64,000 nt of DNA, from NCBI GenBank assembly GCA_944324665.1, contig CALUXD010000001.1, forward strand, positions 558,001 through 622,000, written 5' to 3'. The notes beneath the pieces are model-generated. The model was not told the DNA's origin. It ran no database searches and saw nothing but the letters and a program-made list of their open reading frames with translations. Source of the stretch: Candidatus Proelusimicrobium volucris (GTDB taxonomy: Bacteria; Elusimicrobiota; Elusimicrobia; Elusimicrobiales; Elusimicrobiaceae). The translations under genes and the position numbers were made by a program. Numbering within the stretch: position 1 is the first letter of the stretch; every line of letters starts with the position of its first letter. Below are positions 15,492-18,806 of the stretch, one piece after another.

Positions 15492-15778
15492 TTGAGAAAA
15501 AATAGCCTCAAAAAATAATCTAAAAACAGTAAAAAAACACTATTTGTCCACAGTAATAATTACTGTGGACAAATGTTTGCTTCTCCGACGTAAAAAAGCT
15601 TGTTGATAACTCTCTAAAAATCTTTTCTTAGACGTGATTTGAAATCTTTGGCCAACTTATGTAGAATTTTAAAGGCGATAAGCTGAAAACGGCCTGTTTT
15701 TTATGTTTTTAAAGGTGTATTTATCAACTTTTATCCACAACATAAGCCGTTGTTAAAACTTTTAAAGAGGATAATGCC
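15492..15778. promoter_or_regulatory. AT-rich regulatory region upstream of nrdD with DnaA-box-like 9-mers
   Basis: 287 nt without a gene. The first 50 nt are A-rich. A perfect inverted repeat occupies 15542-15574. Sites close to the DnaA-box consensus TTATNCACA occur at 15544-15552 (TTGTCCACA), 15564-15572 (its inverse), 15601-15609 (inverse of TTATCAACA), 15721-15729 (TTATCAACT) and 15731-15739 (TTATCCACA, a perfect match). This may be a DnaA-responsive promoter of the reductase operon or a replication-origin-like element. The ACACTAT at the left edge of the repeat also resembles an NrdR half-site. Confidence 0.5.
15542..15574. repeat. Perfect 33-nt inverted repeat (16-bp arms, 1-nt centre)
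   Basis: The arm ATTTGTCCACAGTAAT is followed by one A and its exact complement. It lies 50 nt after the aminopeptidase stop. No T tract follows on the plus strand, so it looks more like an operator or protein-binding site than an intrinsic terminator. Each arm contains TTGTCCACA. Confidence 0.85.
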
Positions 15779-17839
15779 ATGCCCAATAACGATATTCTGC
15801 TGAAAATCATCAAGAGAGACGGAACGACCCAGGTTTTTGATTCCAAGAAAATAACCGATGCCATATATAAAGCCGGACAGTCGACCAATGAATTTGACTT
15901 GGATACGGCCAAGAAACTTACCATCAGAGTGGTGAATATTCTTCAGCAGCTTTATTCGGAAATTACCCCGAGCGTGGAAAATGTGCAGGATGTTGTGGAA
16001 GATGTGCTTTTGACCTCCAATTTCCATAAAACGGCGAAGGCCTATATCTTGTACAGGGACCAGCGCGCTAAGGTAAGGGAAATTTCTTCCAAATTTAACG
16101 TTGAGTTGGTGGACCAATATTTGCAGAAGCTGGACTGGCAGGTAAACGAAAACAGCAATATGGGCTATTCCCTGCAAGGGCTTAACAATTATGTATCTTC
16201 GGAAATAACGAAGATCTACTGGCTTAATAAAATATATCCCGAGAATGTAAAGAAGATGCACACTTCCGGCGATTTTCACTTACACGATTTGGGCCTTTTA
16301 GGCGCCTATTGCGTAGGCTGGGACTTGCAGGATCTTTTGATAAGCGGTTTTAAAGGTGTGGCCGGCAAGGCGGAATCCAGGCCGGCAAAACACCTGAGAA
16401 CGGCTTTGGGGCAGGTTGTAAACTTCTTTTACACTTTGCAGGGAGAAAGTGCCGGTGCCCAGGCGTTTTCGAACTTCGACACCTTGTTGGCGCCGTTCAT
16501 TTATTATGACAATTTAAGCTATAAAGAGGTAAAACAGGCCTTGCAGGAGTTTCTGTTCAACGTGAACGTACCTACTAGGGTAGGCTTCCAAACGCCGTTT
16601 ACCAACGTAACTATGGATTTTGTGGTGCCTTCTTATTATAAGAATCAGGGCGTTATAATCGGCGGACAGATACAGGATAAGAAATACGGGGAGTTCCAAA
16701 AGGAAATGGATATGTTCAACAAAGCGTTTTTGGAACTTATGTTAGAAGGCGACGCGAAGGGACGCGTATTCACCTTTCCTATCCCCACCTATAACATAAC
16801 AAAGGATTTCGATTGGGATAATCCGGCCTATAAACCTTTGTGGGACATAACGGCTAAGTACGGCATACCGTATTTCGCGAACTTCGTAAATTCCGATATG
16901 AATCCGGAAGACGCGCGTTCCATGTGCTGCCGCTTGAGAATAGACAACCGCGAACTTAACCGCCGCGGCGGCGGGCTTTTTGGATCGGCTCCGCTTACCG
17001 GTTCAATCGGAGTGGTAACGATAAATATGCCCAGGATAGGCTATTTGGCCTCTACGGAAGAGGAGTTCTTTAAACTTTTGGAAGATAGAATGGACGTCGC
17101 CAAACTGAGCCTTGAGATCAAAAGAAAGGTAATCGAGCGCTTTACCAGTGCCAACTTATACCCTTATATGAGTTTCTATTTAAGGAGCGTAAAGCAGCGT
17201 TTTAACGAGTATTGGAAGAACCATTTCTCCACGATCGGACTTGTGGGGTTGAACGAGGCTTGCTTAAATCTTTTGGGCGAAAGCGTCGGCAGCGAGAAAG
17301 GCAGGAAGTTCGGCGTAAAGGTTATGGACTTTATGCGCGCCAAACTCATAGAGTATCAAAAGGAAACCGGCAACAATTATAATTTGGAAGCGACGCCGGC
17401 GGAAGGAACCTCTTACAGATTGGCCAAATTGGACAGGGAGAGATTTCCCGATATTATCGTGGCCGATAATGAACAGGCCGCGCAGGGCAGGCCTCCTTTC
17501 TATACCAACTCGAGCCAGCTGCCGGTTAACTATACCGACGACATTTTCGAGCTGTTGGACTTGCAGGACGAAATACAGGCGAAATATACTGGAGGAACGG
17601 TGCTTCATATCTTTATGGGCGAGAGGATAAAAGATACGGAAGCGTTAAAGAGGTTTATCAGGAAAGTATGCGAAGGTTATCAGCTGCCGTATTTCTCGAT
17701 AACGCCGACTTTCAGCGTATGTCCCAAATGCGGATATATAGAGGGTGAACATTTTGAATGCCCCAAATGTAAAGCCGAGAAGATAGAAAACATAGAAAAG
17801 CAGATAGCGCTCCTCGAGGAGCAACTGTACAGCAAGTAA
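15779..17839 (+). CDS. nrdD: Anaerobic ribonucleoside-triphosphate reductase, main subunit lacking the glycyl-radical loop
   Basis: 686 residues. An N-terminal ATP-cone allosteric domain (residues ~5-100, LKIIKRDGTTQVFDSKKITDAIYKAG) precedes the class III reductase barrel. Visible features: SGDFHLHDLGLLGAYCVGWDLQ with Cys178 (position of the formate-site cysteine), SMCCRLR with Cys383/384 (candidate thiyl-radical cysteine) and NEACLNLLGE. The zinc site is at Cys648, Cys651, Cys661 and Cys664 (CPKCGY and CPKC). In known NrdD proteins the R-V-x-G-Y radical loop follows this zinc site within the same chain. Here the chain instead ends in a 22-residue charged helix (residues 665-686). The radical loop is encoded by the next gene. 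AGAGGA ribosome-binding site. Confidence 0.95.
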   Translation: MPNNDILLKIIKRDGTTQVFDSKKITDAIYKAGQSTNEFDLDTAKKLTIRVVNILQQLYSEITPSVENVQDVVEDVLLTSNFHKTAKAYILYRDQRAKVREISSKFNVELVDQYLQKLDWQVNENSNMGYSLQGLNNYVSSEITKIYWLNKIYPENVKKMHTSGDFHLHDLGLLGAYCVGWDLQDLLISGFKGVAGKAESRPAKHLRTALGQVVNFFYTLQGESAGAQAFSNFDTLLAPFIYYDNLSYKEVKQALQEFLFNVNVPTRVGFQTPFTNVTMDFVVPSYYKNQGVIIGGQIQDKKYGEFQKEMDMFNKAFLELMLEGDAKGRVFTFPIPTYNITKDFDWDNPAYKPLWDITAKYGIPYFANFVNSDMNPEDARSMCCRLRIDNRELNRRGGGLFGSAPLTGSIGVVTINMPRIGYLASTEEEFFKLLEDRMDVAKLSLEIKRKVIERFTSANLYPYMSFYLRSVKQRFNEYWKNHFSTIGLVGLNEACLNLLGESVGSEKGRKFGVKVMDFMRAKLIEYQKETGNNYNLEATPAEGTSYRLAKLDRERFPDIIVADNEQAAQGRPPFYTNSSQLPVNYTDDIFELLDLQDEIQAKYTGGTVLHIFMGERIKDTEALKRFIRKVCEGYQLPYFSITPTFSVCPKCGYIEGEHFECPKCKAEKIENIEKQIALLEEQLYSK

Positions 17840-17954
17840 AAGATTTGCTTTGTAAATAGAGCAAAGGACCTACAAAAAAATGGGTCTTGTTAGTAAAAAA
17901 ATAATTTGCAAAAATAATAAAGGCGGCCAAAAAAGCCGCGTAGGAGGAAGGTTT
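17840..17954 (+). other. Spacer between nrdD and the glycyl-radical gene
   Basis: 115 nt. Reading on in the nrdD frame gives a stop after 17 codons with no resemblance to NrdD. A small hairpin GCGGC/GCCGC (17923-17939) ends just before an AGGAGG site (17942-17947), 7 nt from the next ATG. The hairpin could tune translation or RNA stability of the two parts. Confidence 0.6.
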
Positions 17955-18149
17955 ATGACAGCACAAGAAAGACACAATATAGAAGCAAAAATTTCCGAAC
18001 TTAAAGCCGCGAAAGAAGCGGTAAAAGGTACGAACTGCGAAGTATATTCCAGAGTAGTAGGTTATTTAAGGCCGGTACAGAACTGGAACAAAGGCAAAAA
18101 GGAAGAGTTTGCGCTTCGCAAGAATATAAAACTTTCGTGCGGGTGCTAG
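17955..18149 (+). CDS. Free-standing glycyl-radical domain of anaerobic ribonucleotide reductase
   Basis: 64 residues. Residues 29-58 (EVYSRVVGYLRPVQNWNKGK onward to the FALRKNI segment) match the C-terminal radical loop that is normally fused to NrdD just after the zinc site. Gly36 in RVVGY is the predicted radical residue. Residues 3-24 form a charged amphipathic helix (QERHNIEAKISELKAAKEAV), absent from the fused form. The protein ends in CGC, like the Cys-rich tails near zinc sites. ATG 17955 is chosen because of the optimal AGGAGG site; an upstream ATG at 17880 in the same frame has no such site. It lies between nrdD and nrdG. It may complete NrdD in trans, comparable in principle to GrcA (YfiD) for pyruvate formate-lyase. 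Confidence 0.85.
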   Translation: MTAQERHNIEAKISELKAAKEAVKGTNCEVYSRVVGYLRPVQNWNKGKKEEFALRKNIKLSCGC

Positions 18150-18191: not shown

Positions 18192-18806
18192 GTGAAGATT
18201 AGCGGACTTTTGAAATTTTCAATGATAGATTTTCCGGGCAGTATTTCTGCCATAGTATTTACGCAAGGTTGTAATCTGCATTGTGCATATTGTCATAATC
18301 CGGAACTTATACCGCCTGCCCAGGATAAAAATAACGCCATAGCGGAAGAAGATATTTTAGACTATCTTAATATGCGCAGGAAGGCGCTTGACGGGCTTGT
18401 AATAACAGGGGGAGAGCCTACTCTTCAGCCTGATTTGGAGCAATTTGCCGAGAAAGTCAAGGCTATGGGTTACCTGATCAAGCTGGATACCAATGGCACC
18501 AATCCTGCCGTATTAAGAAGACTTATCGATAAAAAACTGCTGGATTTTATAGCCATGGACATAAAGGCCCCGTTTGAAAAGTATGAGGCCATCTGCGGCA
18601 AGACTAATCTTGACGCGGTAAAGGAAAGTATGGCCATGATTATATCTTCCGGTATAGACTACCAATTTAGAACCACCTACTATAAAGAAGTGCTTAACGA
18701 TGCTGACATCGAGGCCATTAAGGCGATGGTGCCGGATCAAAGCAAATTCAAACTGCAGGAATGCCTGCCCGTAAAAAAGAAAGATGTTCTTAAAATAGAA
18801 CATTAG
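18192..18806 (+). CDS. nrdG: Anaerobic ribonucleotide reductase activase, radical SAM
   Basis: 204 residues, GTG start. Radical-SAM cysteines Cys27, Cys31 and Cys34 in QGCNLHCAYCHNPEL bind the [4Fe-4S] cluster that cleaves S-adenosylmethionine to put the glycyl radical on the reductase. A GGEPTLQ motif follows near residue 76. The sequence begins ISGLLKFSMIDFPG, typical of the NrdG2 type (TIGR02495). Third gene of the nrdD operon, 42 nt after the glycyl-radical gene. Its natural substrate here would be the 64-residue protein, alone or docked on NrdD. Confidence 0.93.
   Translation: MKISGLLKFSMIDFPGSISAIVFTQGCNLHCAYCHNPELIPPAQDKNNAIAEEDILDYLNMRRKALDGLVITGGEPTLQPDLEQFAEKVKAMGYLIKLDTNGTNPAVLRRLIDKKLLDFIAMDIKAPFEKYEAICGKTNLDAVKESMAMIISSGIDYQFRTTYYKEVLNDADIEAIKAMVPDQSKFKLQECLPVKKKDVLKIEH

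Follow-up and report, generated by a model that had tools for sequence, protein, structure and literature searches.

An inverted pair of predicted DnaA boxes precedes the ribonucleotide reductase genes nrdD and nrdJ in the genus of Candidatus Proelusimicrobium volucris

A perfect palindrome lies upstream of nrdD, the gene of a class III anaerobic ribonucleotide reductase, in the window analysed here (the whole 64-kb stretch, G000:C1:558001-622000, of a 1.5 Mb source genome in four contigs). Since each of its arms carries the DnaA box TTGTCCACA, the palindrome is an inverted DnaA-box pair, and we consider it probable, at roughly three chances in four, that together with a third box it forms a DnaA-binding promoter element of nrdD and that an element of the same kind stands at nrdJ. 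That DnaA binds the pair and affects transcription is what we infer from the sequence of these sites. The first-pass annotation had favoured control of nrdD by DnaA, and this reading is supported by the conservation of the pair in the genus, by its fixed spacing to the promoter and by a pair of the same kind before nrdJ. The features upstream of nrdD are as follows.

15542-15574, no strand: perfect palindrome with 16-bp arms and a 1-bp centre; inverted DnaA-box pair and probable terminator hairpin of the upstream gene
15544-15552, plus strand: DnaA box 1, TTGTCCACA, distal half of the pair, predicted by sequence match
15564-15572, minus strand: DnaA box 2, TTGTCCACA, proximal half of the pair, predicted by sequence match
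15601-15609, minus strand: DnaA box 3, TTATCAACA, predicted by sequence match
15639-15667, plus strand: predicted nrdD promoter, TTGAAA-17-TAGAAT, which aligns across all 15 loci of the genus
15721-15729, plus strand: weak box-like site TTATCAACT, sequence match
15731-15739, plus strand: exact TTATCCACA in the 5' leader, at about +58 to +66, sequence match

The palindrome reads ATTTGTCCACAGTAAT-A-ATTACTGTGGACAAAT, with arms that are 100% complementary as had been claimed for this 33-nt repeat, and no other perfect short-loop inverted repeat in the window is as long. It is single-copy in the genome with up to 3 mismatches allowed (the search used the inner 29 bases), which excludes a dispersed repeat. 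The first-pass annotation had also described one exact TTATCCACA with near matches, two of them in the palindrome, and an adjacent A-rich tract; five box-like sites were located and the tract is present at about 15492-15541. Boxes 1 and 2 are separated by 11 bp in the window (9-11 bp across the nrdD pairs of the genus) and boxes 2 and 3 by 28 bp. Four of the five sites, all within 196 bp, fit a strict set of box forms (TTWTNCACA, TTRTCCACA, TTRTCAACA). With 34 boxes per 305,934 sampled bases taken as the background, the Poisson probability of at least four strict boxes in 196 bp is ~1e-8, or roughly 1e-4 genome-wide; the background is slightly overestimated because the sample holds one 6-kb stretch twice as well as the dnaA region. 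By this test on the window locus, DnaA boxes are clustered before the nrdD promoter beyond chance. The two downstream sites are narrower in distribution: the TTATCAAC core of the weak site is confined to the window genome among the loci compared, and the leader TTATCCACA is found in 5 of 15 loci, the closest ones (L010-L014).

Conservation was assessed in 18 genomes of the genus, of which 16 carry nrdD, the window genome included. The inverted pair is present at all 15 genus nrdD loci with upstream sequence; the sixteenth (G012), having only 20 bp upstream, is outside this count. One genome in which nrdD was not found (G016) has a contig that ends directly after the pair, a CGACG element and a third box. 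As the genus genomes are relatives, 15/15 does not amount to 15 independent events. The pair is absent from 14/14 other nrdD loci compared in the family, and among 80 named nrdD loci, largely from the same genomes, it is present in 13 and absent in 66 (2 of these with less than 100 bp upstream), with one, L170, not judgeable. The closest named relatives of this nrdD are uncultured Elusimicrobiota, several labelled Elusimicrobiaceae and many from animal guts. Being conserved in the genus loci and missing from the other nrdD loci, the predicted box pair is a trait of this one genus. Across 15 distinct nrdD palindrome sequences, box positions 2 and 4-9 are invariant, and 10 of them have C or A at position 1, unlike TTATCCACA; two genomes (G004 and G009) have TTATCCACA exactly on both arms. 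Box 3 is recognisable at 11 of 15 loci, of which L016 and L017 match a loosened form only, and is not recognisable at the other four (L014, L015, L018, L019). Its position holds an exact TTGTCCACA or TTATCCACA in G008 (L023) and G015 (L025).

At 15/15 genus loci, 94-97 bp separate the downstream edge of the pair from the last base of the -10 hexamer; the hexamer was placed by pattern within a search range, and the alignment agrees. The distance from the pair to the nrdD ATG varies from 135 to 216 bp among the same loci. Transcription would start near 15674, judging from the predicted promoter, which puts the pair at about -130 to -102 and box 3 at about -73 to -65. No box overlaps the -35/-10 region at nrdD or at nrdJ. 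Judged by C-terminus, at least four kinds of gene occur upstream of nrdD, and in 13/13 named loci the upstream gene is codirectional with nrdD.

The first-pass annotation had proposed a scan for the palindrome at other reductase genes. One such gene is nrdJ, which encodes the class II reductase and has high-scoring matches in four genomes of the genus. The three of these with upstream sequence, to which the nrdJ evidence is limited, all have a pair TTATCMACA-N10-TGTKGATAA with a gap of exactly 10 bp. In two of the three the arms are unequal, one box being TTATCAACA, and two of the three form no hairpin (-3.9 and -5.1 kcal/mol). In these pairs the proximal box lies immediately before the -35, with its centre some 41-44 bp ahead of the inferred start. 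In G012 the only TCCACA palindrome found is the one upstream of nrdJ. No such pair is present at nrdJ in other genera (15 loci compared). The window genome has no match to PF02867, the barrel domain of class I/II reductases. A partial second reductase-like ORF with PF02867 was seen at a contig edge in another genus genome (G004:C63:2-991).

The pattern TCCACA-N3-12-TGTGGA has 22 sites in the 18 genus genomes and its reversed control has 1. Of the 22, nrdD accounts for 15, and the G016 contig end and nrdJ have one each; the other 5 comprise 1 before rpsF-ssb (G003), 3 in prophage-like tail ORFs and 1 in a DnaA-box cluster of G016. The mixed form TCCACA-N8-12-TGTTGATAA has 2 sites in the same genomes, both at nrdJ (control 0), and pairs with two TTATCAACA arms were not found in any of the 18. 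Of the matches outside the genus, the one inspected, in G020, falls in coding sequence. The G003 copy (L098:1421) lies upstream of a series of ORFs resembling rpsF-ssb-rpsR-rplI, named by sight. Several sister-genus loci (L026-L036) have an AT palindrome around AGTAATAATTACT upstream of nrdD; that core equals the centre of the window palindrome, which may be chance.

The explanation that best survives beside DnaA control is that the palindrome is merely an intrinsic terminator of the upstream gene whose likeness to DnaA boxes is incidental, although we regard it as unlikely. The arms at nrdD form a stable predicted hairpin of -15 to -27 kcal/mol, followed by a T-rich stretch in most loci (weak in the window); the palindrome lies 24-55 bp after a codirectional stop in 13/13 named loci and scans as terminator-like on both strands. 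The hairpin also covaries, which was absent from the first-pass annotation. In a set of 15 distinct nrdD palindromes (L011 was left out since its palindrome is identical to that of L010), 97.8% of the cells in 12 base pairs are paired and 5 pairs have changed on both sides. Cells changed on both sides number 30 compared to 9.2 in shuffles, with 0/500 shuffles reaching 30, and slid controls give 1 to 8. The first base outside the box is paired in all 15. The complementarity of the arms thus extends beyond the boxes, so that the sequence is kept as it would be for an RNA hairpin. Some of the symmetry at nrdD therefore has a source other than DnaA, which counts against the DnaA reading. No Rfam match exceeded the gathering score. 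However, termination alone would require neither that the TCCACA core stay unchanged behind four different upstream genes nor that the distance to the next promoter be held at 94-97 bp, and the nrdJ pairs of two of the three genomes keep both boxes yet are not hairpins. The nrdD palindrome therefore probably doubles as the terminator of the upstream gene, a role predicted from its fold and position, and we think that termination is an added role and not the whole function. An inverted repeat may also stay perfect in the absence of selection, through template switching that corrects quasi-palindromes; this possible alternative reason for the perfect arms leaves the fixed promoter distance and the nrdJ pair unexplained.

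It is improbable, though less so than the readings that follow, that the pair is bound by a lineage-specific dimeric regulator whose site resembles a DnaA box. A symmetric, low-copy site with fixed spacing is typical of a dimeric repressor or activator, and the pair occurs at nrdD and nrdJ of the genus wherever upstream sequence exists. Against such a regulator, several genomes have the exact DnaA consensus at this site, the tolerated variant TTATCAACA is that of the dnaA-dnaN region, and box 3 stands alone as one more box of this kind, in variable form. The region after dnaA in the window genome has two TTATCAACA and one TTGTCAACA. In the 420 bp after dnaA at 16 genus loci there are 11 TTATCAACA, 3 TTATCCACA, 3 TTATACACA and 4 others, with none of those boxes at 3 or more of the 16. 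TTATCAACA is thus the commonest box after dnaA in the genus, and this occurrence suggests that it is a DnaA-box form of the genus.

The reading of the locus as a DARS- or datA-type site that stores or reactivates DnaA, with nrdD as a bystander, has still less to recommend it. One of the three boxes points against the other two, as in the E. coli DARS core (PMC5742627). Yet the pair stays with nrdD while the upstream gene changes, and it recurs at nrdJ; moreover, the tandem boxes 3 bp apart listed for DARS1 in Table 1 of PMC11317965 have no counterpart here, where boxes 2 and 3 are 28 bp apart. Elsewhere in the genome, five exact TTATCCACA occur in 285 bp at L040:4709-4993 (G000:C2:588709-588993), upstream of a pal/ompA-like gene and near mnmE-mnmG-rsmG-like ORFs (names by sight), and a similar cluster is visible in 10 of the 16 genus loci compared. 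This cluster at C2:588.7 kb is a candidate DnaA reservoir or reactivation site by its boxes. It was also considered as an origin, which was dropped since the skew is negative on both sides and flips at dnaA.

A replication origin at the nrdD locus, for which clustered DnaA boxes beside an A-rich tract might speak, is hardly credible, as the locus has no lasting skew change and both the flip and a box cluster are found at dnaA-dnaN instead. GC skew around nrdD is positive in 17 of 18 6-kb bins (the remaining bin is -0.058), with no lasting change of sign across about 108 kb. On the same contig it is negative up to C1:353 kb and positive beyond, passing from -0.115 to +0.112 at dnaA-dnaN. The dnaA gene is at G000:C1:352293-353600, about 220 kb from nrdD, and it is intact, its product passing TIGR00362 and having the DnaA helix-turn-helix domain. 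The dnaA-dnaN region is the likely origin, because the skew flips there and not at nrdD and boxes cluster there. The GC-skew check proposed in the first-pass annotation thus upheld its preference for nrdD control over oriC.

That annotation had named an NrdR site as a third option for the palindrome, which fails: NrdR is over the cut-off in 0/18 genus genomes, although its absence is weaker for the seven of the 18 that are less than 90% complete. Two weak NrdR matches coincide in position with nrdD. In the set as a whole, NrdR is over the cut-off in 8 of 36 genomes, all of another family of the order.

Two conserved elements that are not DnaA boxes, and that the first-pass annotation had not described, flank box 3.

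15586-15590, no strand: element A, CGACG in TTCTCCGACGTAAAAA, conserved non-DnaA motif
15630-15634, no strand: element B, AGACG in TTAGACGTGATTTG, 44 bp downstream of A and directly upstream of the -35

The elements (CGWCG/AGWCG) frame box 3 with their spacing held at 44-45 bp. The joint pattern is present in 10 of 13 genus loci and in 23 of 46 other Elusimicrobia loci; it is in 0/9 Endomicrobium loci and 0/9 loci of other phyla. Both elements are conserved in the genus and in a sister genus, and these GACG-like elements may be the site of an older regulator. Element A was rejected as a genome-wide operator, the strict pattern returning one site, elsewhere than nrdD. In a matrix scan of the window the nrdD copy ranks top, though only modestly ahead (18.8 vs 15.5), with a matrix partly built from that copy. 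An element similar to A/B also sits in the C2:588.7 kb box cluster.

The reductase genes themselves are arranged as follows.

15779-17839, plus strand: nrdD, class III anaerobic ribonucleotide reductase with ATP cone and without the glycyl-radical segment (NCBIfam PRK08270 and NrdD)
17880-18149, plus strand: separate 89-aa ORF with a glycyl-radical motif (SRVVGY), from sequence
18192-18806, plus strand: nrdG, NrdG2-type activating radical SAM protein (domain matches)

The class III reductase (15779-18149) is therefore split, with an NrdD of 686 aa and its glycyl-radical segment in the small downstream ORF. Of the 68 nrdD loci L159-L226, which are all Elusimicrobiota by record title or identity, 67 have NrdD split in this way (the remaining one, L222, is cut off); in other phyla it is in one piece at 11/11 judged loci (L233, cut off, is outside the count). 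No report of a split NrdD was found in the open-licence literature.

Under DnaA control, the protein, probably as a dimer or short oligomer, would occupy two boxes spaced by roughly one turn of the helix. It would bind upstream of RNA polymerase, and reductase transcription would be tuned to the amount and nucleotide state of DnaA. At nrdJ the same kind of pair would be used directly upstream of the -35. We think that activation is the more likely sign of regulation, since no predicted box covers the core promoter at either gene. Where the leader box is present, which among the 15 loci means the window genome and the four nearest to it, high DnaA might in addition cause repression or a roadblock. 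The nrdD palindrome would also be kept complementary as RNA, probably ending transcription of the upstream gene. A more tentative proposal, to which we give less than even odds, is that DnaA replaced NrdR as the common reductase regulator by means of the inverted pair, which at nrdD forms part of the hairpin that terminates whichever gene precedes it. If true, one short sequence insulates a gene and couples DNA-precursor supply to replication initiation.

Matching DNA-precursor synthesis to replication is an old question, addressed mostly in E. coli, in which DnaA and NrdR each play a part. A genus in which no NrdR was detected, and which has the same kind of pair at two unrelated reductases, offers a natural test of the initiator as the coupling factor, and the conserved pair in this genus of gut bacteria suggests a direct link between the replication switch and the supply of DNA precursors. 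DnaA control of nrd genes is already known as a kind from E. coli; the inverted geometry and the reach to nrdJ appear new, and no report of either, or of the merger with a hairpin, was found in the open-licence literature.

The nrdAB promoter of E. coli is controlled by DnaA (Augustin 1994 and Olliver 2010, as cited in PMC8203912); in the account given there, DnaA-ADP or low DnaA-ATP activates and high DnaA-ATP represses. Both systems place initiator boxes upstream of a ribonucleotide reductase promoter. In E. coli, however, the reductase is class Ia and the site a tandem double box (PMC11317965, Table 1), whereas in the genus the reductases are class III and II, the boxes are inverted and 9-11 bp apart, and NrdR was not detected. 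By ChIP-seq, E. coli DnaA is also bound in vivo upstream of both nrdA and nrdD (PMC11317965), and nrdD there, as at the predicted site here, is a class III reductase gene. The E. coli nrdD site is a tandem double box with a 2-bp gap (Table 1 of that source), unlike the inverted, promoter-fixed pair with a third box and a covarying hairpin seen here, and E. coli nrdDG has NrdR boxes as well (PMC12176259). With the DARS1 and DARS2 cores the genus site shares three DnaA boxes, the first opposite to the other two (PMC5742627); its spacing differs, and its boxes are tied to reductase promoters. The NrdR regulon is similar in that one regulator is common to several reductase classes, although NrdR itself was not found in the genus (0/18). 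Binding of DnaA in E. coli is reported to require tandem boxes 2-3 bp apart (PMC11317965), and the genus boxes, being inverted and 9-11 bp apart, do not have this form. Set against the tandem 2-3 bp rule, the inverted geometry of about 10 bp is a testable second mode for DnaA on promoters.
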